Source: Acidobacteriota bacterium
GTDB lineage: Bacteria > Acidobacteriota > Terriglobia > Acidiferrales > UBA7541
Length of the DNA: 52,955 nucleotides
Assembly: GCA_003167215.1 (NCBI GenBank)
Contig: PMTV01000025.1
Span: 93,495-146,449 of the forward strand
Direction of reading: 5' to 3'
In this document: positions 13,746 through 52,955 of the stretch, one piece after another
Layout of the letters: the number at the start of each line of letters is the position of its first letter
How positions within the stretch are numbered: the stretch's first letter is position 1
Program-made: the position numbers and the translations under genes
Notes under the pieces: generated by a model
What the model was told of the DNA's origin: nothing
The model's input: the letters and a program-made list of their open reading frames with translations, nothing else
Databases searched by the model: none

Positions 13746-14873
13746 TTACAACATCTGCGCGAAAATGTCCGCTGCACGCTCGATCGCGCCACCCGGGCCA
13801 AGCTTGGCACGCACCTCAGCCAGGCTTGATTTCATCTCCTCACGAGCGGCCGGCGAATCCAGAAGGCGGCGAACTTGCGCTTCGACAGCGGCAGGCGTGA
13901 AATCATCCTGAATTAACTCCGGAACCACGCTTCTCCCCGCTATTAGATTCACCATGCTGAAGAAGGGTGTCCGAATCATTCGCCGCAGGATGGATGCGGA
14001 AATCGGGCTAACGCGATAAACGACAACCATCGGCGTGCCGAGGAGCGCTGCTTCAATCGTGGCCGTTCCGCTGGCGACAATGGCGCAATCGGCCGCGGCC
14101 AATGCGTCGTAAGTGGCTCCCTGGACAAGCCTTATATCGATAGCTGGGAGAGTGTGTGAAGTGAAGGAGCCCGCGGTCAGGTTCGGCGCCGCGGCGACGA
14201 CGAACTGCATCTCGTTATCGGCTCGGATGAGGCGCTCGCACGCCTCGAGTACGCGGCCATAATTTTGCCTGATCTCATTTCGCCGGCTGCCGGGCAGGAT
14301 GGCGACGATGGGCTTGTTTGGATTCAGATTGTGAAGCGCCGCGAATTCCGCGCGACTCATTGTGGGCCGCACGACGTCCACCAGCGGATGTCCGACAAAA
14401 TCTACCGGCACTCCCGCCTCGCGATAGATTTTCTCTTCGAATGGAAATATTACGACCATGCGATTTACTCGCCGCTTGATGATGCGAACGCGCCCCGCGC
14501 GCCAGGCCCAAACCTGCGGACCGATAAAATAGCCGACCGGAACGCCAATCTGTTTCAGACGGCGAGCCACGCCCAGATGGGTGCCGGGCGAATCGACCAA
14601 AATTGCAAGCGCGGCGTTGCGGCGTTTGGCTTCGCGCTTCAGACGATTCTGCACACCGATCACGGTCGGAATTTTGTGCAGGACTTCCGCGATGCCTACA
14701 ACCGCAACCTCGTGGTAGTCGGCGATCAGTTCGACGTCCGCTTCTGCCATGCGAGGACCGCCCATACCAAAGAACTTCGCGCCGGTACGTGCGCGCAAGG
14801 CAATTGCGAGCCGCGCAGCATACATGTCACTGGATGCTTCCCCGGCGGAAATCAAAATGTTCTTTTCAGTCAT
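13746..14873 (-). CDS. lpxB: Lipid-A-disaccharide synthase
   Basis: A 375-residue family-19 glycosyltransferase, close in length to E. coli LpxB (382). The N-terminus I-S-A-G-E-A-S-S-D is the family signature, followed by F-F-G-M-G-G-P-R-M, I-D-S/V-D-S-P-G-x-H and P-Q-V-W-A-W-R. The C-terminal half has L-P-G-S-R-x-N-E-I and A-S-G-T-A-T-I-E-A-A-L. It condenses UDP-2,3-diacylglucosamine with lipid X to give the lipid A disaccharide, at the inner face of the cytoplasmic membrane. It lies 42 bp after an ABC exporter pair and is probably in the same transcript. The other lpx genes are not in the window. Confidence 0.93.
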   Translation of the reverse strand: MTEKNILISAGEASSDMYAARLAIALRARTGAKFFGMGGPRMAEADVELIADYHEVAVVGIAEVLHKIPTVIGVQNRLKREAKRRNAALAILVDSPGTHLGVARRLKQIGVPVGYFIGPQVWAWRAGRVRIIKRRVNRMVVIFPFEEKIYREAGVPVDFVGHPLVDVVRPTMSRAEFAALHNLNPNKPIVAILPGSRRNEIRQNYGRVLEACERLIRADNEMQFVVAAAPNLTAGSFTSHTLPAIDIRLVQGATYDALAAADCAIVASGTATIEAALLGTPMVVVYRVSPISASILRRMIRTPFFSMVNLIAGRSVVPELIQDDFTPAAVEAQVRRLLDSPAAREEMKSSLAEVRAKLGPGGAIERAADIFAQML

Positions 14874-16793: not shown

Positions 16794-18739
16794 TCGCGTT
16801 CAAGCTCTTCTTCAAGAAGTTGCTTTTGATACAGGTCCGCGTAATAGCCGTTGTGCGCGAGCAGTTCGTCGTGCGTGCCGCGCTCGATGACATAGCCCTC
16901 GCGGAGGACGATTATTTGGTCGGCATTCTTCACGGTCGAGACGCGGTGAGAAATCAGAATAGTCGTGCGCTCGCGCATCACGTCGCGCAGGCGGCGCAAG
17001 ATGCGCTCTTCGGTATCGGTATCCACGTTCGCCAGCGAGTCGTCGAGAATCAGGATTTTTGGATGCCGCATGATGGCGCGGGCCAGTGCCGTACGCTGCT
17101 TTTGCCCGCCGGAGAGCGTGATTCCGCGTTCCCCTACCATGGTGCTAAACCGATGCGGAAAACTCTCAATCTCGCCGGAAATGCTCGCGATTTCAGCCGC
17201 TTCGAGAATGTGCTCTTCCGCCGCGTCCACCGCGCCGAATGCAATGTTTTCGCTAATCGTTTCGCTGAATAAAAACGTGTCCTGCGGAACGTACCCGATC
17301 GCGTTGCGAAGTTCGGTAAGCGGATACTCTCGAATGGAACGACCGTCGAGGAATAATGTGTTCGGAGGCGCATCCCACAAACGCGCGATCAGAGCCGCTA
17401 AAGTGGACTTACCGCTGCCGGTCGGCCCTACGACTGCCAGAGTCGTGCCTGCCGGAACGTGCAAGTTGATGTTGTGGAGGACGGGCTCTCCCGCCTGCGT
17501 TTCCGAACCCGAAGTTGGGTAGGTGAACGTGAGGTTTCGAAAATCAATCTCGCCGCGGACCGCGGATTTCTCCTGTGGCGCGGGAGCATCTCCATTCGGC
17601 CGCATGTTGAAAGGGTCAGTCGGCGTATGCGCTGGGGCGGACGAATCTCGAATCCCCGGTTCCGCGTTCATGATGTAATTCAGCCGGCCCATGGACGCGG
17701 CCCCGCGCTGGAAGATATTCGTCACCCAGCCGAGAGCGATCATCGGCCATACAAGCTGGATCAAGAACATGTAAAACGCGTTGAACGTTCCAAGTGAAAC
17801 GCGATGATCGATCACTTGCTTGCCGCCCAGCCACAACAGGATCAGAACGGTCATGCCGATCAGTGTGGAAAGCCCCGGAAAAAAAAGACTCCAAGTGCTG
17901 ATGAGTTTGATGTTGCGGTTTACATAGTCACGATTGGCTTCGTCGAACTTCGCGACTTCCTGTTTTTCCTGGGCGTAGGCGCGAATGACGCGCATGCCGG
18001 TAAGATTTTCCTGTGCGCGAGTGGAAAGCACGCCAAGCGCGGCCTGAATCTGCTCCGAGAGCCGGTGAATAATCTCGCCGAAATAGCGGGTGACGATGGC
18101 AACGATCGGCACAGGAATCAAGACCCACATCGTGAGCCCCGGCGAGAGTTTAAGCATGAAGAAAATCGCCAGCACCATCGTGGAGATCGTAGTCGCGCTG
18201 TACATGATGCCGGGACCGAGCACCATGCGCACCCCGTTCAGGTCGTTTGTGGCGCGAGACATCAAATCGCCCGTCCGATTGCGCACGTAAAATTCCGGTT
18301 CGAGCAAGACCAGACGCGCCAGCAGATCGTTGCGCAGGTCGTATTCAATCTCGCGAGAAACTCCGATCAGTATCCATCTGGTCCAAAAGGAGAAAAATCC
18401 CTTGGCAAGCATCACCGCTACCAGGATCAGGCAATAGAGTCCCAAAGCGTGGCGGCTGCGCGGCGCATAAATCGAAAAAAGCGGTGAGAGGAGTGCGCGC
18501 GAAAATCCGCTCAGAGTCGAAAGCGTACGCGGCGATCCTTGCACCAGGTCCGTAATCATTCCAATGATCAGTTGGGGCAGCGCCCCGACCAGCCCCATCA
18601 GCGCTAGAGTCAAAAGTCCCAGAGCCGTCATCCCCTTGTAGCGGAGGACGTACGGAACGAGCGTCTTCATTTGGCTCCAGCCGGAAGGCTTGGGTTGCGG
18701 GCGCACCGTGGCGACGACCGGTTGGGCGATGGCGCTCAT
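16790..18739 (-). CDS. ABC exporter half-transporter (partner with degenerate Walker B)
   Basis: A 649-residue half-transporter with an N-terminal membrane domain (about 40-350), a Pro/Ala-rich linker and a nucleotide-binding domain from about 400. Walker A is G-P-T-G-S-G-K-S-T and the signature a perfect L-S-G-G-Q. Walker B reads I-L-I-L-D-D-S, with Asp in place of the catalytic Glu, as in TM287, BmrC and LmrC. Together with the downstream gene it should form a heterodimer with one active and one degenerate ATP site. Its start overlaps the lipoprotein stop (ATGA), so lipoprotein, both subunits and probably lpxB are one operon. Confidence 0.9.
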   Translation of the reverse strand: MSAIAQPVVATVRPQPKPSGWSQMKTLVPYVLRYKGMTALGLLTLALMGLVGALPQLIIGMITDLVQGSPRTLSTLSGFSRALLSPLFSIYAPRSRHALGLYCLILVAVMLAKGFFSFWTRWILIGVSREIEYDLRNDLLARLVLLEPEFYVRNRTGDLMSRATNDLNGVRMVLGPGIMYSATTISTMVLAIFFMLKLSPGLTMWVLIPVPIVAIVTRYFGEIIHRLSEQIQAALGVLSTRAQENLTGMRVIRAYAQEKQEVAKFDEANRDYVNRNIKLISTWSLFFPGLSTLIGMTVLILLWLGGKQVIDHRVSLGTFNAFYMFLIQLVWPMIALGWVTNIFQRGAASMGRLNYIMNAEPGIRDSSAPAHTPTDPFNMRPNGDAPAPQEKSAVRGEIDFRNLTFTYPTSGSETQAGEPVLHNINLHVPAGTTLAVVGPTGSGKSTLAALIARLWDAPPNTLFLDGRSIREYPLTELRNAIGYVPQDTFLFSETISENIAFGAVDAAEEHILEAAEIASISGEIESFPHRFSTMVGERGITLSGGQKQRTALARAIMRHPKILILDDSLANVDTDTEERILRRLRDVMRERTTILISHRVSTVKNADQIIVLREGYVIERGTHDELLAHNGYYADLYQKQLLEEELERE

Positions 18740-19365
18740 GGATGAACCTGCGACTGCGGAGTGTCCAGCGTGGGCAATTCCCCGAGGAAATTTTCGAAGG
18801 TCCTGTCGAGCGATTGGTAACGTTTCACCTTCGGATTCCAGCGGATTCCCACTGGCAATACGTGTCCGCCCTCACCTTTAGGTGACGCGATCGGTGTGAA
18901 ATACATTTCCAATCCCTTTTCGTGCTGTTCGAATTGCAACCGCCAGCCGTTCACCGGCGCCAGGGGAGATCCTCCGAGAAATCCCTTCGTGTTCTTCAGA
19001 TGTTCGTCGCACAGGAAGATCTGTTTCCAAGTGTTGCCGTCATTTTCGATTATAACAGCGCGCGTGACGACGGTGCCTGCCGCGACGCCTGGGGGGATTG
19101 CCTTCAGACGATTTACCGCCAGAACCTGCTGCGGGCCTGTCTTGGAAAGGTCGCCGAACGCCAGGACTTCAGTTTCTGAACCCAACGCCAGCTCGGCAGC
19201 TTTCTGCACGTCAGGTGGAATTGCCGGAGCGGCTGGCGTGGGACCAACGGCGTCTGATGTGGCTGCACGGGGAGGGGTCGCCGTGGGAGTTTCGCAAGAC
19301 AGAACCGTGAGTGCCGCCGCGGCGACAGCAATGAGCGCGATTGTTTTCATGCTTTTTTTGCGCAT
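18736..19365 (-). CDS. Putative lipoprotein of unknown function
   Basis: A 209-residue protein with a short basic N-terminus, an Ala-rich hydrophobic stretch and a possible lipobox V-L-S-C near residue 24, followed by a Pro/Thr/Ala-rich linker and a globular domain (about 50-200). I chose the ATG at 19365; another at 19350 would also give a good signal peptide, and neither has a clear Shine-Dalgarno. Its stop overlaps the start of the ABC half-transporter (18739-18736), which suggests a functional link, for example an accessory periplasmic component. I do not recognise the family. Confidence 0.72.
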   Translation of the reverse strand: MRKKSMKTIALIAVAAAALTVLSCETPTATPPRAATSDAVGPTPAAPAIPPDVQKAAELALGSETEVLAFGDLSKTGPQQVLAVNRLKAIPPGVAAGTVVTRAVIIENDGNTWKQIFLCDEHLKNTKGFLGGSPLAPVNGWRLQFEQHEKGLEMYFTPIASPKGEGGHVLPVGIRWNPKVKRYQSLDRTFENFLGELPTLDTPQSQVHP

Positions 19366-19370
19366 CCGGA

Positions 19371-19943
19371 TCAAAGGCTCGACGCCGCCAGCGTGATAGA
19401 CACCACCTGCTTGGAGGAAACGCTGCAAGACACCTCCATCACCTGGGGGACGTTTGAGCCGGCCCAATCGAACGAGTACAACCATAATTCTAGCTGTTCG
19501 CTTCCTCTCGCGGAAGGACTCTCAGATTCAGGCTTGCCATATATTTCGGCCATGCGACTGCACGGGTCGCCGAGCTGCAAACCCTGGCCGGACGCTAACA
19601 ACTTCAAGCGGCTGGGAGCCATTACGACAGCCTGGCATTTTGCCATGATTTCAGGTTTGTAGTCGGTATCCACTGTGATCGTTTGAACGATTTTATTTGC
19701 GTCTACTTCAACGCGAAGTTCGCGGTGGGTGCAGATGTCGCCCCACAACAATGCGTCCGTTACGGATTCGTCGCGATCCAGCTCGCGGAAAATTTTCTGT
19801 GGCGAAGCGAGCCTGTCGCGGCCTGGATGAAGTCCGGCAAGGCTCAGCTCGTTTGTTCGCTTGGAAGCCTCGACTGACGGCACGGCTTGAACCCCCAGCA
19901 TCAGGAGGGAAGCCAAGCTAACGAGCTGCCAGAATTTCTTCAA
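19371..19943 (-). CDS. Secreted protein of unknown function
   Basis: About 190 residues from a TTG start at 19943 that has GAGG at a suitable distance. This start places a normal signal peptide at the N-terminus (L-V-S-L-A-S-L-L-M-L-G core, cleavage after V-E-A). The frame is open to an ATG at 20021, but that would add 26 basic residues ahead of the signal and overlap the upstream gene by about 100 bp. The mature part has two Cys pairs possibly forming disulfides and a G-D-P-C-S-R motif near the middle. The gene ends 5 bp before the lipoprotein start. No family recognised. Confidence 0.6.
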   Translation of the reverse strand: MKKFWQLVSLASLLMLGVQAVPSVEASKRTNELSLAGLHPGRDRLASPQKIFRELDRDESVTDALLWGDICTHRELRVEVDANKIVQTITVDTDYKPEIMAKCQAVVMAPSRLKLLASGQGLQLGDPCSRMAEIYGKPESESPSARGSEQLELWLYSFDWAGSNVPQVMEVSCSVSSKQVVSITLAASSL

Positions 19944-20592
19944 GGCGCGCCTCAAAGTTTTCCTCACCCTCCGACCACAGCCGCACCCTGGCGACCGGCA
20001 AAGCTTTTTCGATCCGGCCAACCCAGTCGAAAAGTTTTCTTATGTTCTCGCGAGTCTTTTCATAATAGTTGTGCAAATTTTCAGGACGCGCCATGGCTTC
20101 AAGAAACAGTTTTTCCTCCGGGCTTTCCGCGGTTGAACGGCCAATCTGCCGGATGCCGAGCAAGCCTGCGTGTCCGGTGAAGAGATGCTCGAAGCCGAAA
20201 TTTACTTCCAAATGGCCGTCTTGACGCCAGGCTCCGCTGTCGAAATCCTCCCCATAACAAATAAGCTCCAGGGCTTGCGGCTGCAACTGCCATCGCGCCG
20301 GATCGCCTTCGTAAACCCACAGGTCCCAGCGCGAATGAACCGAGTAAGAGCTGTCGTTATTCAAATGATTCTTCGCCAATTCCACGATGCTTGCGGCATC
20401 CAGAGGAAGCGAACGCAGATCCTGCTCGTAGACCGGAGTTTCCGTCCAGTCCACCGCGCGAATTTCGAGATGCGTGAATCCGGGCTGCTTCGCAGTGAAG
20501 GGAACCGTGGAAAGAAAAGTGCCCAATCTTTCGAGAAGGAGATCCTCGGGAAAATCCTTGCACCAGATACTCAGGTAAGCCTGATTCGACAT
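19918..20592 (-). CDS. Conserved-looking cytoplasmic protein of unknown function
   Basis: A 224-residue protein without signal peptide, membrane segment or recognisable motif. It is rich in Trp and acidic residues (for example S-R-W-D-L-W-V-Y-E-G near residue 90 and F-D-W-V-G-R near 190). Codon use and the long open frame support it. The ATG at 20592 is preferred over one 9 bases upstream because a TATAAT box ends 7 bases before it, which would give a leaderless message. It heads the run of minus-strand genes leading to the ABC exporter and lpxB. Confidence 0.68.
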   Translation of the reverse strand: MSNQAYLSIWCKDFPEDLLLERLGTFLSTVPFTAKQPGFTHLEIRAVDWTETPVYEQDLRSLPLDAASIVELAKNHLNNDSSYSVHSRWDLWVYEGDPARWQLQPQALELICYGEDFDSGAWRQDGHLEVNFGFEHLFTGHAGLLGIRQIGRSTAESPEEKLFLEAMARPENLHNYYEKTRENIRKLFDWVGRIEKALPVARVRLWSEGEENFEARLEEILAAR

Positions 20593-20599
20593 GCCGAGC

Positions 20600-20605
20600 A
20601 TTATA
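20600..20605 (-). promoter_or_regulatory. TATAAT -10 box, predicted leaderless start
   Basis: On the minus strand a perfect TATAAT occupies 20605-20600. The ATG at 20592 begins 8 bases after the last T, which is where transcription would start. No Shine-Dalgarno is present. The -35 region (about 20623-20629) is poor, TTCGGC or TTTCGG at best. The distance fits a leaderless transcript of the 224-residue gene. Confidence 0.5.
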
Positions 20606-20673: not shown

Positions 20674-23562
20674 TTACTTTTTGTGCTTAGGAGAGTCTTC
20701 GTCTTCTTCGGTGTTGAAGTCCGTGGAAATGCCGAGGAGCCGTTCCTTCAGAGTGTCGCCCATCCCGGCGAGAACTTCTGAGCAGGTTTCGCGAAGGCGC
20801 TTTTCGGCGGCTTTGGCAATAGTGTCGAGCACGGATTGCGAATGCTGGCCGAGCGTGGTGGCGGAAGCCAGCAACCAGGAGTTGGAGGCGTTTTCCAGTC
20901 GAGCCTTGTATTGTTCGATGGATTCATCGGTGGACTGTTTCAATTGCAGCTTCCACTCTTCCTTTTCGACTTCGCGCTTTTCTTCCCAGGCTTCAATGAG
21001 CGGCGCAAGTTGCGATTGAAGGAATGTCCGCGCCTGCTCCACGCCTTCCATCATGCGCTCGTCCATTTTCTGCTGAAATTCGGCGAGCGAGCCTTCGCGG
21101 TTGAACTCCATATCGGAGCGCGCCTTTTCCAGCGCCGAGCGGGAACTTTGTTCGAACCGCCGTAGAGACTCGCCGGTCACGCGCTGCACCTGATCGGAGA
21201 AGGATGCCGTCGCGATTTGGGCCGTTTCGTTGAGTTTCTCTCGTTCGCGGGCCACTACTTCTCCCGCGGCGTCTTCGATTTGCGCCGTGCTGTGCTCCAC
21301 ATACGTTCGGCGGTAGTGATCGAGCTCGGAAGCCAGCATGCTGGATACTTCGGCGGCGCGATCGCGAAGTGTCGTGGCAGATTGCTCGACGGCCTTTTCG
21401 AGCGAGGTCTGCATCGTGGTCTGCGCTTTTTTCTGATACCAATCGGAAGCTTTCGACAGAGCCTCGTACGTCTCGTGCTGCGTCTCCGTGCTTTTTTGCT
21501 GCAAGTCTTCTTGGACTTTCGAAAGAGAAGCCCGGCAAGATTCCTCGAATTCCGCGGGAACCTTGGAGGCCTCCGCGCGGAGTCGTTCAAGCGACTCCTG
21601 GACCACCTGTTGCGAAGACTGCTGCGCTTGCTCGCGAATTGAATGTTGCAGTTGCGCGGCTTGCTCCGCGGCCTGGCGCATCTGTTCGCCGATGGCGCTC
21701 TTCAGGTTTGACGCTTGCTGCTCGGCATTCTGCAGCTCGGACGCCATCTTTTGCACCGCTTCGAGGCTTGGCGCGATCTTCTGATCGAGTTCGGCGGAAA
21801 CTCGCGCGAGAACCTTTTGTGCGGATGCTTCCAGCGCCGGTTCAATCTGCTGTGCGCGTTCGGAGATAATTTGATCGGCGCTCCGACTGATCTGCTCCCG
21901 TTGCGCGCCAAGAATCTCATCGAGGTGCTGGCGCGTTTGTTCGAGAGTGACCTTCGCGGCATCCCGGAGTTGCAACTTGGTTTCTTCCGCCCGGTCGCGC
22001 TCGTGCTTCAGGCTGGCCCCGAGCGATTCGATGGTCGTAGCTGCGCTGTCGATCACTTCGTCCAGCGAAGTACGAAGAATATCGCTGCGGGTAAGAATGT
22101 TTTGCTCCGCTTGCGACATCGCTTGCCGCGACACTTCGGAAATTTTCTCGTCTATCCGCTGCGACGCGTTCGCGATTTTCTCGTCGAACTCGTGCGACGC
22201 TCCCGCCAGGCTGGCCTCGACTTGCTGATTCCAGCGCTGGTTCGCCGCGGCTATCTCCGCTTGCGATTGCTCCACCGTCTGGCTTCGCACGCTCTGGGCC
22301 GTTTCTTCCAAACTCTTGCGCCATTGATCCAGATGTTGCTGCGCCACTTCCGGCGAGGAAAGAATTTCCAGCGACGGCGTGGCCGCCGCGCGCTCGATCA
22401 AAGCCCGCTCCACCGCTTCATCGACCGCTTGCTTCAGGCTGTGCGCCTCCGTTTGCTCCGCCGCCTGTCGGGCTGCCTGAGTTGCGGCTTGCTCGGCTGC
22501 ATGGCTCACTGCCTGCTCCACTGCGTCACGGATTTTCTCGTCGAGATGAATTGCGGAAGCCTCGGTGGACTTTCGCGCCTCGTCCACAATCGCCGCTGTG
22601 CGCTCCGCCGCCTGTTGCACCACCTTCTTCACCGAAGCTTCGGACACGCGCTCCATCGAAACCTTGATAGCTTTCTCGATGGCCTCATGTAGTTGCGAAT
22701 CGAGTTGCTGGCGGGCAATTGCCATTTCCTCGGTGATCGCCGCTTCTGCGGTCCTGCGCATTGACTTGTCGAGTTTTTCCTTAACTTCGTCCACCATTTG
22801 CGCCATTTGGCGCGCTAGCGGTCCCTGCACATCTTGGCTTGTACTTGGAACTACATGGATCTTGCTTTCTTCCGCCGGAGCGGCTGGAACGCTTGCATGT
22901 GCCGGCGGCGCGGGCGCCTGATGGAAGGTTGCCTGCGGTGGTGCTGCAGGCACTCTGGATGCTGCAGTCGGTGCGGAAGGCAAAGGTGCCGCGACCGAGG
23001 GCGCAGGAATCGCTGGTTTTGCACTCTCGCTTGAGGGCCTGGGAGTCAGCTGAACCGTTGCCGGCGTTTCCGCTTTCTTATCCTGGGAAGCCGATGGAGG
23101 AGCAGAAACCGTTGCGACGGGCGGTGCCGCGGATAGTTTCGGATCAACGGCGGCATACGTAGCAGAACTTTCCGCGCCAGCCTCATCCGACATCGGGAAC
23201 CAGTCCTCGGGTGGGAACGCTATACCCCAGACGTTACCGGCGGCTTCAAACTCAAGCCCAATTTGAAACAGCTCGCGAACTGTGCGCGGTCGCTGCACCC
23301 ATACTACCCGGCCCTGAGTGGTACGCTTTTGTCCCGCTTCGGGACGAGGGACTTCCAGCGTAACCATCGAATTCTTGGGAACGTAATGTTTCGACTGGTA
23401 CTTACATCCGTGACAATTCACCATCACGGTTGTGGTTCGTTCCTTAAATGGTTGGCCGAGCGCGTCCACACCCGTGACCGTTATGGGCACGGCCTGCACG
23501 ATCCGCGTGCTACGGCGCTTCTGTCCGTCTGGATTGGTCGATACCAGGGGTTCGGTCACCAT
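20674..23562 (-). CDS. Giant PilZ-coiled-coil protein
   Basis: About 962 residues from the ATG at 23562, with GGAGGA touching it; the adjoining GTG is an alternative start. The frame is open to 23724 but that part is Pro-rich and unlike a domain. Residues about 12-125 form a PilZ domain: R-R-S-T-R supplies the R-x-x-x-R that binds c-di-GMP, but the usual D/N-x-S-x-x-G loop is N-C-H-G-C. A Pro/Ala-rich linker follows (about 140-250), then some 680 residues rich in Ala, Gln, Glu, Lys and Ser that look like continuous coiled coil, recalling chemoreceptor or apolipoprotein-like helices. There is no membrane segment. A c-di-GMP-responsive filament or scaffold is inference. Confidence 0.8.
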   Translation of the reverse strand: MVTEPLVSTNPDGQKRRSTRIVQAVPITVTGVDALGQPFKERTTTVMVNCHGCKYQSKHYVPKNSMVTLEVPRPEAGQKRTTQGRVVWVQRPRTVRELFQIGLEFEAAGNVWGIAFPPEDWFPMSDEAGAESSATYAAVDPKLSAAPPVATVSAPPSASQDKKAETPATVQLTPRPSSESAKPAIPAPSVAAPLPSAPTAASRVPAAPPQATFHQAPAPPAHASVPAAPAEESKIHVVPSTSQDVQGPLARQMAQMVDEVKEKLDKSMRRTAEAAITEEMAIARQQLDSQLHEAIEKAIKVSMERVSEASVKKVVQQAAERTAAIVDEARKSTEASAIHLDEKIRDAVEQAVSHAAEQAATQAARQAAEQTEAHSLKQAVDEAVERALIERAAATPSLEILSSPEVAQQHLDQWRKSLEETAQSVRSQTVEQSQAEIAAANQRWNQQVEASLAGASHEFDEKIANASQRIDEKISEVSRQAMSQAEQNILTRSDILRTSLDEVIDSAATTIESLGASLKHERDRAEETKLQLRDAAKVTLEQTRQHLDEILGAQREQISRSADQIISERAQQIEPALEASAQKVLARVSAELDQKIAPSLEAVQKMASELQNAEQQASNLKSAIGEQMRQAAEQAAQLQHSIREQAQQSSQQVVQESLERLRAEASKVPAEFEESCRASLSKVQEDLQQKSTETQHETYEALSKASDWYQKKAQTTMQTSLEKAVEQSATTLRDRAAEVSSMLASELDHYRRTYVEHSTAQIEDAAGEVVAREREKLNETAQIATASFSDQVQRVTGESLRRFEQSSRSALEKARSDMEFNREGSLAEFQQKMDERMMEGVEQARTFLQSQLAPLIEAWEEKREVEKEEWKLQLKQSTDESIEQYKARLENASNSWLLASATTLGQHSQSVLDTIAKAAEKRLRETCSEVLAGMGDTLKERLLGISTDFNTEEDEDSPKHKK

Positions 23563-23762
23563 TCCTCCAAGAGGGGTGTCTATTAAGGGTAGCACCGGCA
23601 GTGCGACGGGTCGAGCGACATAAGGGGGCTGTGCGAAAGGGTTACTTGGCGGTAACGCACAGCTACCAATCCGAGCGCGCGAGTTCCCAGGATTAAGAAG
23701 AGGGAAGGTGACGGCACCAACCAAAGTCCGTGCATTTCTAGCAAAGAGTTCTGCGCTTGGTT

Positions 23763-25331
23763 ATGATGTCAAACGTGAACGAAAAAGCTCCGGTACTCCT
23801 CATCCGCAAACTCATCCTCATTGCGGGTGTCTTGGTCGTACTTTTCGTCATCGGTCTCTTCGTAGCCTCCGTGCGGCTGCCGGGCTATCTGCGCGAGCGC
23901 GCTATCGAGACCCTGCGTACGCACTTCCAAAGCGATGTGCAGTTTTCCAACCTTCAGGTCCAGGTATTTCCGCGGACGCGAGTCACTATTTCGGACCTGG
24001 TGTTGCGGCACAACGGGCGAACAGATGTTCCCCCGCTAATTCAGGCGAAGGAGATTATCGTTGACGCTACCTTGACCGGTCTCCTGCTTCCAAAGATGCA
24101 CGTCGCAAGCGTCCGCCTGATTGGATTGCAGATCCACACGCCGCCCCACCGCCCGGGGGGACAGCCGCTGCTGAAGAAAACGGACGAAGATCTCTCAAAA
24201 AAATACCCGATCGTAATCGACGATATTCACGCGGACGATGCGCTTCTCGAAATCCTTCGGCCCCAGCCGGGAAAAGAGCCTAAAGACTTCCAGATTCATC
24301 ATCTGCAGATCAACGATTTTAGCTTTGACCGTCCTGCTAATTTCCACGCCATTCTGACCATTCCGACTCCGAAGGGAGAAATTGACTCGATTGGCCTATT
24401 CGGTCCGTGGCAGCCGGAAGAGCCCAGCCAACTCCCGGTCGATGCAAAATATAATTTCAAGAATGCGGACTTCCGCACCATCAAAGGTATTTCCGGGACC
24501 ATGAACTCCACGGGTGCGTTTAAAGGCCCTCTAAACTACTTATCCGTCCAAGGGCAAACGGAAACTCCGGATTTTGCGTTGAACATTGCGGGACATCCCG
24601 AGCACCTGCACACCGATTACGACGCCACCGTGGACGGCACTAACGGTAACGTGATTCTAAACCATATTCTCGCGAAACTCCGGAACAGCACGTTGCACGT
24701 CAAGGGCGAAGTGGTGGATATGGAGAAGAACGTCAGAGGACGAACGATCAAGCTTGACGCCGTCTCCAACGATGCCCGAATCGAAGATTTTCTATGGCTT
24801 GCGGTTAAGTCTGACCAGCCTGTGATGACCGGCTCCGCCACCCTGGATGCACAGATCGAAATTGCGGAGGCGGACACGGACATTCTTCAGCGTTTGACCA
24901 TTCATGGGCAATTCGGTGTGGACAATGCGGAGTTCACAAGCTCGACGGTGCAAGGAAGGATCGACACGTTCAGCAAAAAGGCGCAAGGCGAACCAAAGGC
25001 CACGGACCTGGGAACGGCCGTTTCCGCGTTAAAGGGAAAGTTCGATGTGAACAAAGGCCTCATCACATTCTCGGAACTTTCCTTCGCGATCCCCGGAGCC
25101 TCGGTGCAATTGGCCGGAACCTATGAAATGACGGGCGGTGAAATGAATTTCCACGGCAAACTGCGGATGGACGCGAAGCTTTCGCAGACGACCACCGGAG
25201 TGAAATCATTTTTCTTGAAGGCGGTTGATCCGTTTTTCAGAGGCAAGCACGGCGGAACGGAAATACCGATCAAAATCACGGGAACAAAAGATCATCCGTC
25301 ATTCGGACTGGATCTCCATCACGGAAACTAA
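23763..25331 (+). CDS. AsmA-like membrane-anchored protein
   Basis: About 522 residues. One N-terminal transmembrane helix (about 15-40) is followed by a periplasmic beta-rich part with F-S-N-L-Q-V-Q-V-F-P-R-T-R-V-T-I-S-D-L typical of AsmA N-termini. The C-terminal third has the AsmA-2-like pattern G-T-Y-E-M-T-G-G-E-M-N-F-H-G-K and ends with I-P-I-K-I-T-G-T-x-x-x-P-S-F-G-L. AsmA-like proteins bridge the periplasm and are linked to phospholipid transport to the outer membrane. The start is uncertain: ATGs at 23763 and 23766 and a GTG at 23775 are all in frame without a clear Shine-Dalgarno. It ends 11 bp from the convergent recR. Confidence 0.8.
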   Translation: MMSNVNEKAPVLLIRKLILIAGVLVVLFVIGLFVASVRLPGYLRERAIETLRTHFQSDVQFSNLQVQVFPRTRVTISDLVLRHNGRTDVPPLIQAKEIIVDATLTGLLLPKMHVASVRLIGLQIHTPPHRPGGQPLLKKTDEDLSKKYPIVIDDIHADDALLEILRPQPGKEPKDFQIHHLQINDFSFDRPANFHAILTIPTPKGEIDSIGLFGPWQPEEPSQLPVDAKYNFKNADFRTIKGISGTMNSTGAFKGPLNYLSVQGQTETPDFALNIAGHPEHLHTDYDATVDGTNGNVILNHILAKLRNSTLHVKGEVVDMEKNVRGRTIKLDAVSNDARIEDFLWLAVKSDQPVMTGSATLDAQIEIAEADTDILQRLTIHGQFGVDNAEFTSSTVQGRIDTFSKKAQGEPKATDLGTAVSALKGKFDVNKGLITFSELSFAIPGASVQLAGTYEMTGGEMNFHGKLRMDAKLSQTTTGVKSFFLKAVDPFFRGKHGGTEIPIKITGTKDHPSFGLDLHHGN

Positions 25332-25342
25332 ATCCCGCGAGG

Positions 25343-25942
25343 CTAGAGCTCGCGGCGTCCTTCCATCGCTTTCATCATCGTCACTTCGTCCGCGTATTCA
25401 AGGTCTGATCCGACGGGAATACCCATAGCGATGCGCGTGACGCGAACGCCCAACGGCTTGATGAGCTTCGAAAGATAAACGGCCGTGGCTTCACCCTCGG
25501 CTGTCGGGCTCGTAGCGATGATGATTTCCTCCACCGTGTTGCCTTTTAGTCGCTCGATGAGGCTCTTGATTTTTATTTGATCGGGCCCGATCCCTTGCAG
25601 CGGTGACAATGAACCGCCGAGCACGTGATATAGCCCGTTGAATTCCCGTGTTTTTTCCACCGCCTGAATATTCGTAGCTTCCTCCACCACGCAGATGATC
25701 GCCCGGTTCCGCGTCGCGCTCGCGCAGAAATGGCAGGGATCCGCGTCTGTAATATTGTTGCAGACGGAACACTCGCGCACTTTTTCCTTGGCTTCGCGGA
25801 TCGCGTCGGAAAGCGCGAACGCCTGGTCGCGGTCCACACGCAACAGGAAAAACGCCAGACGCTGCGCGGTTTTCTGCCCAATCCCAGGAAGGCGTTTCAA
25901 TTCGTCAATCAATCGCGTCACTGAAGGCGCAAAATCGGGCAT
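25343..25942 (-). CDS. recR: Recombination mediator protein RecR
   Basis: A 199-residue RecR of normal length. The order is helix-hairpin-helix [11 protein letters not shown], the C4 zinc finger C-S-V-C then C-H-F-C (about 57-73), the Toprim domain beginning I-C-V-V-E-E-A, and G-G-S-L-S-P-L-x-G-I-G-P. It works with RecO and RecF to load RecA at gaps. It closes the conserved SRP RNA-dnaX-ybaB-recR cluster, 79 bp after ybaB. Confidence 0.95.
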
Positions 25943-31647: not shown

Positions 31648-32022
31648 CTAATTGAGTCTCGAGACTCCCAGACTCCACAAACTATGCGGCTGCAGTTTCT
31701 GCGCTCCGATCGAAATCGCCGGATATTCCGGGCGGACGCGAACGATCCGGAACAAAGCTGATTTCGAATTCAACTCGTCGCCGCCGCTCTGGTGAATTAC
31801 CCGGATGGCCACCACGGTCTCCGGTGCCACTTCCGTATGCAAGCGGAATTGGCAACCCGAATCGCTGACGTTCCACGTCTTCGTGCGTTCGGTGAAAAAG
31901 CGTAAATCACAGTCGAACCCGCAAACTTCTATCGTCAACGACAGCGGAACGCGATCTTCTTGCCGCCGGTCATCCGTTGTAACTGTTCCCAAGTGCTGCC
32001 AGTCGGCTTGTTGCTTTTTCAT
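31648..32022 (-). CDS. Small PilZ-domain protein with canonical c-di-GMP motifs
   Basis: A 124-residue protein that is one PilZ domain. R20-Q-E-D-R24 is the R-x-x-x-R switch and N-V-S-D-S-G is the N-x-S-x-x-G motif, so c-di-GMP binding is likely. The ATG at 32022 has AAGGA 8 bases upstream; an ATG at 32031 is also in frame, and the open frame to 32259 overlaps the regulator gene. It lies 65 bp after the NtrC-type regulator gene and has a sigma-54-like element in that gap, so it may be read both from the operon and on its own. Confidence 0.8.
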   Translation of the reverse strand: MKKQQADWQHLGTVTTDDRRQEDRVPLSLTIEVCGFDCDLRFFTERTKTWNVSDSGCQFRLHTEVAPETVVAIRVIHQSGGDELNSKSALFRIVRVRPEYPAISIGAQKLQPHSLWSLGVSRLN

Positions 32023-32051
32023 ATGGTCCATCCTTGGCGTGGCAGTCTTGG

Positions 32052-32068
32052 AACAACGACCGTGCCGG
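32052..32068 (-). promoter_or_regulatory. Sigma-54-like -24/-12 element before the PilZ gene
   Basis: On the minus strand CGGCACG-GTCG-TTGTT matches the consensus TGGCACG-N4-TTGCW with two mismatches: the first T, and the C of the -12 GC. The GG to -12 spacing is correct. Transcription would start near 32041, 19 bases before the ATG at 32022. The element overlaps a palindrome (GTGCCGGCAC), which could explain the match by chance. Confidence 0.35.
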
Positions 32069-32087
32069 CACATAACCAAACTGTCGT

Positions 32088-33503
32088 TTATGCAGCGCTG
32101 ACCGCAGACTTCCCGTTGGCCGGACGTTTCAGAAAACGGTAAAGGCTGGTGCGTCCGATTCCCAATACCTGTGCGGTGCGCACACGATTGCCTTTGCACA
32201 TATCCAGCACGCGCTGAATGTGAACGCGACGAATTTCTTCCAGTGGAAGTGGGCGCCAACTTTCGTCCGAGGCGGCACTTCCGCGGTGGGGGTTTTGCAG
32301 GTGTTCCGGAAAATCCCCGATGTCGATGAAATCCGCTACCGTTGTAATCGCGGCGCTGGCGATCACGTTTTCAAGTTCGCGGACGTTTCCCGGCCAGTCG
32401 TGCTGCAAGAGAAGGATCTGCGCGCGTCGCGTCAAGCCCTGGATCGGCTTTCCGTAGGCTTCGCTGTACTTCTTCAAGAAATGCTGCACTAGAATCGGAA
32501 TGTCTTCGGGACGTTCTGACAATCCGGGAACCCGGATTTCGATGCTGCTGAGACGGTAGAAAAGATCTTCGCGAAAACGCCCGGCAAGAACTTCGGCGCG
32601 AAGGTCGCGGTTTGTAGCCGCGATCAAACGCAAGTCCACTTTTCTCACTTCGGGCGAACCCACGCGCTGAATTTCGCGGTTCTGGATCACCCGCAGCAGC
32701 TTTGCCTGCATGTGCAGCGAAGTTTCGCCGATTTCGTCCAGGAAAACCGTGCCTCCATTCGCGTATTCGAAAAGACCGGGGCGCGTCTCCGTGGCGCCGG
32801 TGAAAGATCCGCGCACGTGCCCAAAAAGCTGGCTCTCGAGAAGCGTGTCAACCAGCGCTGAACAATTGCACACTGCGAATCGCTCTTTGGCCACCGGGCT
32901 CATCTGGTGCAGCGCTCGCGCAATCAACTCTTTGCCGCTGCCGGTGGGCCCGGTGATCAGCGCATTCGTATAGTGCCTCGCGATTTTCTTGGTCAGGTCG
33001 AATACTTCCAGCATGGCGGGGCTTCGGCCCACAATGCCGTGAAATAGCAGGTTATCGAGGAGTTTGTCTTCCAGATCGCGGATTTGGGACCGCTGCGTGA
33101 AGTTCTCTGCCAGATCGTCCAGGGCCTTCATCAGCCGCGTGTAATCCACCGGCTTGCACAGGAAATCGTAAGCCCCGTGCTTAATCGCCTCGATAGCAGC
33201 ATCCACCGAGTAGTAGCCCGTGACGAGCACTACGAACATTCCCGGGTCGCACTTCAAAATTCTCTCGAGAAATGCCAGGCCGTCCATCCCCGGCATTTTC
33301 ACATCGGCCACCACCACGCGGCACGCACCAGTCTTGACGCTCTGCAACGCGTCTTCTGCGTTCGTTGTACCGACCGTGTGAAAGCCGGCCTTTTGCAATC
33401 GTGCGGTGGTGAGATCCACCTGGTCAGATTCGTCGTCCACCACGCACACGGAAAGATTCTTTCGTGCTGCTTCAGCTCCAGGTCGCTCTTCGACGGCTAG
33501 CAT
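32088..33503 (-). CDS. NtrC-family sigma-54-dependent response regulator
   Basis: A 471-residue protein in the standard order. The receiver domain spans about 16-130 (acidic D-D at 23-24, phospho-acceptor Asp67, Thr95, Lys117). The AAA+ domain follows from about 155, with Walker A G-P-T-G-S-G-K at 185-191, the sigma-54 contact loop G-S-F-T-G-A at 232-237 (usually G-A-F-T-G-A), and F-L-D-E-I-G. A Fis-type helix-turn-helix sits near 425-462. It activates sigma-54 RNA polymerase when phosphorylated. No histidine kinase is in the window. No Shine-Dalgarno precedes the ATG, and a sigma-54-like promoter would start only 4 bases upstream of it. PilZ-type genes flank it on both sides. Confidence 0.92.
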   Translation of the reverse strand: MLAVEERPGAEAARKNLSVCVVDDESDQVDLTTARLQKAGFHTVGTTNAEDALQSVKTGACRVVVADVKMPGMDGLAFLERILKCDPGMFVVLVTGYYSVDAAIEAIKHGAYDFLCKPVDYTRLMKALDDLAENFTQRSQIRDLEDKLLDNLLFHGIVGRSPAMLEVFDLTKKIARHYTNALITGPTGSGKELIARALHQMSPVAKERFAVCNCSALVDTLLESQLFGHVRGSFTGATETRPGLFEYANGGTVFLDEIGETSLHMQAKLLRVIQNREIQRVGSPEVRKVDLRLIAATNRDLRAEVLAGRFREDLFYRLSSIEIRVPGLSERPEDIPILVQHFLKKYSEAYGKPIQGLTRRAQILLLQHDWPGNVRELENVIASAAITTVADFIDIGDFPEHLQNPHRGSAASDESWRPLPLEEIRRVHIQRVLDMCKGNRVRTAQVLGIGRTSLYRFLKRPANGKSAVSAA

Positions 33504-52345: not shown

Positions 52346-52955
52346 ATGTCGGACCAGCGGCATCACGCTGACAAACCCCTTGCGATTGGTGAGAGACGGA
52401 ACCACGCGCGTACGCCTGTTTCTCCGCAAGCCTTCGTGAAATTCGGTGAAAACAACTACGGCTTCGTTTTCAATATCAGCGAAAGCGGATTGGTATTTGC
52501 ACCCACTGAGACTTTGACTTTGGCAGTCGCCGCCGTGGCCAAAATGCGGTTTCAATTGCCCCAATCCAAGGACTGGATCGAAACCAGGGGAGAAATAGCC
52601 TGGATCGCGGATTCGAAAAAAGAAGCCGGAGTGCGCTTTGTTGATTTACACGACGATACGCGCATCAAGATTCGGAACTGGATCGCGCAGGAGCCCTCTC
52701 GCGCCCAGTTCGCCCGCCAGCGCGACGCCGTTTCCCAATCAGACGAGAGCGCTAAAGACAGTGTCCGTGTCCCTGTTTCAACCGGAAGCCCGGGGGTGAA
52801 CACCGGCACTTTTGTTGACAAAATTGCTCTGAATTCTATGCTTGCGGATCCCGCCAAACTATTGCTCGAAACGAAGAGCGCTAGAGGAAAGCTGGCGTCG
52901 CAACCGGCGAAGGTTGTAGCAAACGAGCCGCGTCAAGCAGCGCGAGGCTTGCACG
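52346..52955 (+). CDS. PilZ-domain protein, partial at the 3' end
   Basis: An open frame of 203 codons that runs off the window. The ATG follows AAGGAAG at normal spacing. Residues about 15-115 form a PilZ domain with R-N-H-A-R (R-x-x-x-R) and N-I-S-E-S-G (N-x-S-x-x-G), so c-di-GMP binding is likely. A Ser/Ala/Lys-rich, probably disordered part follows. It is the fourth PilZ-type protein in the window, and one of three with an intact R-x-x-x-R. Confidence 0.8.
   Translation, partial: MSDQRHHADKPLAIGERRNHARTPVSPQAFVKFGENNYGFVFNISESGLVFAPTETLTLAVAAVAKMRFQLPQSKDWIETRGEIAWIADSKKEAGVRFVDLHDDTRIKIRNWIAQEPSRAQFARQRDAVSQSDESAKDSVRVPVSTGSPGVNTGTFVDKIALNSMLADPAKLLLETKSARGKLASQPAKVVANEPRQAARGLH

Follow-up and report, generated by a model that had tools for sequence, protein, structure and literature searches.

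A candidate PilZ-headed coiled-coil rod protein with a degenerate second motif in one acidobacterial order

Does a PilZ domain joined to a very long helix make a filament or scaffold that is controlled by c-di-GMP? One gene of a soil bacterium, in a 52,955-nucleotide stretch of acidobacterial DNA (the window), raises this question. The original prediction had proposed an N-terminal PilZ domain, a Pro-rich linker and about 680 residues of coiled coil. We found that positions 20674-23562 are indeed an open frame, which lies on the minus strand and encodes 962 residues. In the protein, the PilZ barrel occupies residues 14-106, a linker rich in Pro and Ala follows at about 113-246, and residues 247-946 are predicted to be helix. 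The features are as follows.

20674..23562, minus strand: PilZ-rod gene (962 aa and stop codon), with ATG 23562 or GTG 23559 as the start
23245..23523, minus strand: PilZ domain, residues 14-106 (barrel 21-105), from Pfam, AlphaFold2 and VIA-align
23503..23517, minus strand: RxxxR motif, residues 16-20 (R16, R20), kept in 70/70 distinct related domains
23404..23424, minus strand: loop M47-V-N-C-H-G-C53, which aligns without gaps to D/N-x-S-x-x-G and the residue after it
23200..23235, minus strand: N-x-W-G-I-x-F-P-P-x-D-W tail of a PilZ subclass, residues 110-121, from the sequence
22825..23226, minus strand: Pro/Ala-rich linker, residues 113-246, very low model confidence and no secondary structure
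20725..22824, minus strand: predicted helical rod with hydrophobic period 3.74, residues 247-946, from the full-length model and periodogram
20725..20961, minus strand: conserved module at the C-terminal end of the rod (RLENASNSW...), residues 868-946, common to orthologues and long paralogues
20677..20724, minus strand: acidic, then Lys-rich tail, residues 947-962, from the orthologue alignment

The PilZ-rod gene is a genuine gene, because its orthologues align lengthwise, their starts coincide and the gene order is kept. The orthologues can be aligned over the full gene length, and their differences in length fall mostly ahead of the last third of the rod. The start site is the same in nine of the nine orthologues examined and is preceded by a G-rich, SD-like stretch. 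Because GTG 23559 coincides with the start of most of these orthologues, it may be the true start rather than ATG 23562. No membrane segment was found in the 962-residue protein, the top 19-residue Kyte-Doolittle mean being 1.06, inside the PilZ domain. The only NCBIfam matches were to sigma factors, were weak and fell on the helical region (E 0.024 and 0.075); we dismissed them as an effect of composition.

The N terminus is a PilZ domain, as predicted. Pfam PF07238 matched residues 14-106 with 24.1 bits for the whole protein and 28.4 bits for the domain scored alone (cut-off, 22.5). An AlphaFold2 model of the head, built from a 12-sequence alignment, is a beta barrel of six predicted strands at residues 21-105 (mean pLDDT 72). 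Its best structural match by VIA-align was PA0012 (Z 10.7, rmsd 2.5, 82 aligned). Among the best 50 matches, the top 28 were PilZ or PilZ-containing chains, counting 5y4r, which we take to be MapZ; flavin- or F420-reductase-type barrels started after these, at Z 7.5. A Foldseek search with the head model also placed PilZ chains on top, the best at E 0.0016 and none at E 0.001 or better. When solved structures were searched with the PilZ profile, the sole matches were two WD-40 proteins, hit through the WGIAFPP tail, and we took these as chance.

We then asked whether the head has the motifs of a c-di-GMP receptor. R-x-x-x-R had been noted as kept, and R16 and R20 are shared by all 70 related domains, a count that excludes identical sequences and fragments of less than 90 residues. 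The own genome has 15 canonical PilZ domains; to place the second motif, we aligned the head to a profile of 14 of them and kept the fifteenth (L072) for the test set. The profile scored the head at 34.7 bits and ran through the loop without a gap (attvDvSrsGa against TTVMVNCHGC), and it shows no two-residue deletion there. In this register Met47 occupies the D/N position and Asn49 the Ser position, and the Gly of the motif corresponds to Gly52, which Cys53 follows. D/N-x-S-x-x-G is therefore absent from the head in the gapless alignment, and M-V-N-C-H-G stands in its place. The N-C-H-G-C noted earlier does occur, at residues 49-53, but the view of it as a reshaped N-x-S-x-x-G fails, since its N is at the Ser position. 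Position 47 is D/N in 1 of the 70 related domains and Met, Ile, Leu, Ser, Thr, Ala or Val in the other 69. Canonical c-di-GMP binding by the head appears doubtful, because D/N is found in 1/70 despite RxxxR in 70/70. By fold and profile the head is a PilZ domain; judged by motif, it is not a canonical c-di-GMP receptor.

The cysteines of this loop had also suggested a role in metal binding or redox response. We split the 70 domains, by score rank rather than by the presence of a rod in each case, into 50 orthologues and 20 others. Cys50 is present in 49 orthologues, Cys53 in 49 and both in 48, with one NAHGC and one NCHGF accounting for the single losses. In the 20 others, Cys50 occurs in 3, Cys53 in 15 and both in 2; the first Cys is missing from 17 and replaced by Leu in 8. 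A post-Gly Cys is also found in 3/15 canonical PilZ domains of the own genome, and the orthologues keep the entire loop, not just its cysteines. The resemblance to a metal-binding loop seems to be largely a product of the loop alignment register. The pair is conserved in 48/50 orthologues, but the single losses, the 17/20 domains without the first Cys and the canonical post-Gly Cys leave the metal or redox idea looking weak.

The own genome has 22 PilZ matches at E <= 0.001, of which 19 exceed the Pfam cut-off. [DN]xSxxG is present in 15 and missing from 7, this head included, and all 7 have a W-containing tail related to FWxxxFPPxDW. These seven (L066, L068-L071, L074, L075) form an acidobacterial PilZ subclass with no second-motif D/N and a W-x-x-x-F-P-P-like tail.

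Behind the head, the predicted Pro-rich linker was confirmed by composition, residues 126-246 being 19% Pro and 25% Ala. The full-length AlphaFold2 monomer model shows a near-continuous helix over residues 247-946 with short breaks near 366-371, 395, 403, 620-625 and 781-788, at low confidence (mean pLDDT 59.7). This model is rod-like rather than globular, in line with the original prediction, and the composition of the helix (15% Ala, 13% Glu, 11% Gln and 1% Pro) agrees with the long Ala/Gln/Glu-rich helix described there. The hydrophobic periodogram of the rod has its maximum at 3.74 with a power of 25.9, a value reached in 0/500 shuffles (99th percentile, 9.0). At the heptad period of 3.50 the power was 3.7, below the shuffle 99th percentile. 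Thus, of the coiled coil of about 680 residues first proposed, the length is corrected to about 700 residues for the predicted rod, and the usual heptad sense does not stand, as there is no power near 3.5 over shuffles. The autocorrelation z was 5.5 at lag 15, 4.8 at lag 41, 4.7 at lag 26, 4.2 at lag 11, 4.2 at lag 7 and 0.0 at lag 14, and it was also high at lags 4 and 8. Because it is zero at 14, lag 7 looks like a step inside longer repeats and not a heptad. Segments of the rod peak at 3.81, 3.69, 3.74 and 3.74; the exceptions are two 100-residue windows around the breaks near 366-403, which peak at 4.09 and 4.15. The hydrophobic residues gather in a narrow stripe that spans about 90 degrees, is partly made of Ala and is flanked by weaker shoulders, as expected if helix packs against helix.

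The same period was found across the family. All 28 rods that we compared peak at 3.66-3.82, above the 99th percentile of their own shuffles, 19 of them at 3.73-3.75, and none exceeds its own shuffles near 3.5. This set includes the window's own rod and three from other families and consists largely of homologues, so that the 28 are not independent; proteins of less than 450 residues were dropped, and rod boundaries were set automatically by low Pro content. Synthetic controls peaked at 3.50 for heptads, 3.67 for hendecads and 3.75 for pentadecads. In coiled-coil theory, a period above about 3.6 gives a right-handed supercoil. Because the hydrophobic period of 3.66-3.82 matches hendecads and pentadecads, the sequence suggests a right-handed coiled coil of these repeats, which would be about 104 nm long if straight. 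Searching solved structures with the C-terminal module yielded 12 weak matches; the best covered 21 residues and was to a designed TIM barrel (E 0.00084), and the next had E 0.11.

How widely is the protein distributed? It was matched in 34 of 41 genomes (the own genome and 40 relatives), a count that includes paralogues and PilZ-only matches. The 79-residue C-terminal module was found in 79/95 genomes of the order: 79/89 of the own taxonomic family and 0/6 of two other families. Module counts also include paralogues, since paralogue sequences went into the profile, and in a few cases (for example, G011 and G351) the sole match of a genome is a paralogue or a weak one. All candidates were scored in the order search except in one genome (59 of 68). 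Across the phylum, the own genome alone matched the module, at least 1/297; the phylum searches scored no more than the 19 or 13 top candidates in each genome, and their counts of 1/297 and 9/297 are lower bounds. Family members occur in MAGs named Acidobacteria, Terriglobia, Candidatus Acidiferrales and Acidipila, and PilZ-rod proteins are also present outside the own family, in further families of the same order and class (L049, L050, L053). Paralogues in the own genome are open frames of 897 aa (a PilZ-rod protein with the same C-terminal module), 323 aa and 469 aa. The PilZ-rod protein is thus a conserved, duplicated family centred on one acidobacterial order. The orthologue of an Acidipila sp. 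MAG (L032, 7935-12152, plus strand) has a much longer rod in a 1406-codon open frame, with peaks near 11/3 and 15/4.

The own genome has 10 GGDEF matches alongside its 22 PilZ matches, and we compared these repertoires between genomes with and without the module. It is missing from 10/89 genomes of the family, of which six entered the comparison; G005, G016, G367 and G377, which are 55-86% complete, were left out. The six (G379-G383, G385) have 2-4 GGDEF and 2-3 PilZ matches, and ten chosen family genomes with the module have 6-21 GGDEF and 6-54 PilZ matches. The PilZ profile at E 1e-6 gave nothing in the four of these six that were searched. Because five of the six belong to one genus and the sixth to another, the correlation amounts to one or two events. 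G025 and G026, from other families of the order, are without the module and have 12 and 10 GGDEF and 17 and 36 PilZ matches. We read the comparison as a weak, phylogenetically confounded sign that the PilZ-rod gene belongs with the c-di-GMP network.

The surrounding genes could point to a pathway. The neighbours are listed here; the names recR, ybaB and dnaX for genes of this neighbourhood are our own assignments from the sequences.

13746..14873, minus strand: lpxB, PF02684 with 298 bits
14916..18739, minus strand: two ABC transporter genes, downstream, from the neighbourhood scan
19918..20601, minus strand: 227-aa gene, next downstream, no Pfam match, a conserved neighbour
23757..25331, plus strand: divergently oriented AsmA/DUF748-like gene, 27.4 bits, below its Pfam cut-off (50)
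25343..25942, minus strand: recR homologue, upstream neighbour in 13/18 orthologue loci

Downstream, on the same strand, the 227-aa gene recurs in 17/18 orthologue loci; measured by stop-to-stop frames, in 15 of those 17 it overlaps the PilZ-rod stop or is no more than 109 bases away from it. Its protein was found in 29/41 genomes, and in the order the gene keeps its place beside the ABC pair and either recR or the PilZ-rod gene. The first ABC gene is downstream in 16/18 loci and lpxB in 11/18, with several loci ending too early, and the AsmA/DUF748-like gene stands at the equivalent place in 5/18. In two sister-family genomes, recR, the 227-aa gene and the ABC genes are consecutive without a PilZ-rod gene, and we dropped the reading of an envelope-biogenesis operon on this account. 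Because these neighbours sit together without it, they reveal no pathway. Most simply, the PilZ-rod gene was inserted into an older cluster, because the sister-family order runs recR, 227-aa gene and ABC genes without it. Four genomes from more distant families have the 227-aa gene apart from the recR and ABC genes within the stretch examined. Two more open frames of 216 and 249 aa (18736-20021, minus strand), which lie between the 227-aa gene and the ABC genes, have no Pfam match and recur in some relatives. The window also holds a second PilZ protein (31651-32370, minus strand; profile part 31726-31971, loop NVSDSGC, 20.9 bits, under the Pfam cut-off) and a third, canonical PilZ domain (52391-52690, plus strand; NISESG, 45.6 bits).

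The reading that we favor, with a probability of about 0.5, is a structural protein of one acidobacterial order that acts in the cytosol as an oligomeric rod scaffold and uses its degenerate PilZ head for docking. Several chains would lie side by side, their roughly 700-residue right-handed hendecad/pentadecad coiled coils forming a rod of up to about 100 nm. At one end PilZ heads would be clustered, held by flexible Pro/Ala linkers and serving as docking modules; the other end would carry the conserved module, which would be an interaction module. Because the head keeps RxxxR but has neither the D/N nor the Ser of the second motif, it probably binds c-di-GMP weakly or in a changed mode, or responds to the c-di-GMP network through a protein partner. 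The loss of the second motif, a full-length model that is a low-confidence monomer and the off-period windows around the breaks near 366-403 count against this reading. Of the c-di-GMP-controlled filament or scaffold first proposed, the rod-like prediction survives, but control by c-di-GMP is weakened by the replacement of D/N and Ser.

If instead the head were a genuine c-di-GMP receptor, with RxxxR and with Asn49 serving for the motif Ser, the ligand would switch rod assembly or partner binding. RxxxR in 70/70 related domains, the many c-di-GMP-bound PilZ domains among the best VIA-align matches and the small GGDEF and PilZ repertoires of the six module-less genomes are consistent with this, but 69/70 related domains have no D/N at the D/N position, and we consider it unlikely. 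It is still less probable that the rod is an amphipathic lipid- or membrane-binding helix, in the manner of apolipoproteins and phasins, which the PilZ head recruits to or from the membrane. The top non-PilZ Pfam match is Apolipoprotein (PF01442, 18.4 bits, E 0.0019), yet it is far below the cut-off of 90; the gene is near lpxB and ABC exporter genes, but this neighbourhood occurs without it in the sister families; and such helices share a period near 11/3, but the stripe here is narrow and partly Ala. The least probable explanation, which we regard as very doubtful, is a redox or zinc switch in which C50 and C53 from neighbouring heads bind metal or form disulfides and clamp the heads. Oligomerisation of the rod would cluster the heads, and 48/50 orthologues have both cysteines. 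However, the NAHGC and NCHGF orthologues lose one each, the first Cys is in 3/20 and the pair in 2/20 of the other related domains, 3/15 canonical domains share the post-Gly Cys, and conservation covers the whole loop.

Among the literature searched, which was mostly without subscription papers, we met no PilZ-rod protein of this kind and no paper combining a PilZ domain, a coiled coil and Acidobacteria, in keeping with the earlier remark that no member is characterised. In that literature, only the report on XCC6012, a tetrameric PilZ protein of Xanthomonas campestris, has both PilZ domain and coiled-coil in its abstract (PMC3131395). XCC6012 resembles the scaffold proposed here in combining a PilZ-like barrel with an oligomerising coiled coil, and its c-di-GMP motifs are incomplete; its helices, however, are short, heptad and inserted inside the PilZ fold (PMC3131395). 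The rod described here differs in following the domain and a linker, in its length of about 700 residues and in being non-heptad, and RxxxR is intact in our head. By VIA-align, the head matches the XCC6012 structures (3PH1, 3RQA) at Z 9.1 (rmsd 5.7, 95 aligned) and Z 8.9 (rmsd 3.0, 89 aligned). The single-domain and YcgR-type c-di-GMP receptors PA0012, Alg44, VCA0042 and YcgR are like the head in fold (Z up to 10.7) and RxxxR but have D/N-x-S-x-x-G where it has M-V-N-C-H-G, and to our knowledge they have no long rod. Right-handed coiled-coil stalks built on hendecads or pentadecads occur, for example, in YadA, tetrabrachion and VASP. Such stalks share the period of 11/3 to 15/4 with our rod but are not known to be joined to PilZ domains; YadA and tetrabrachion are surface proteins, whereas we detected no membrane segment here.

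A stronger version of the scaffold reading, which we regard as a long shot, has cytoskeletal-type right-handed rods of about 100 nm acting as long-range spacers or filaments, with heads gated by c-di-GMP or by a zinc or disulfide clasp between neighbouring heads. If true, this would be a new class of bacterial cytoskeletal-type element in one acidobacterial order. PilZ proteins are usually small adaptors or enzyme domains; by joining such a head to a non-heptad rod of great length, this conserved, duplicated family would give a second-messenger network an unusual route to a structural protein. A PilZ subclass that departs from D/N-x-S-x-x-G calls for caution in naming such proteins c-di-GMP receptors, and the family supplies a defined set of fragments: head, rod and C-terminal module.
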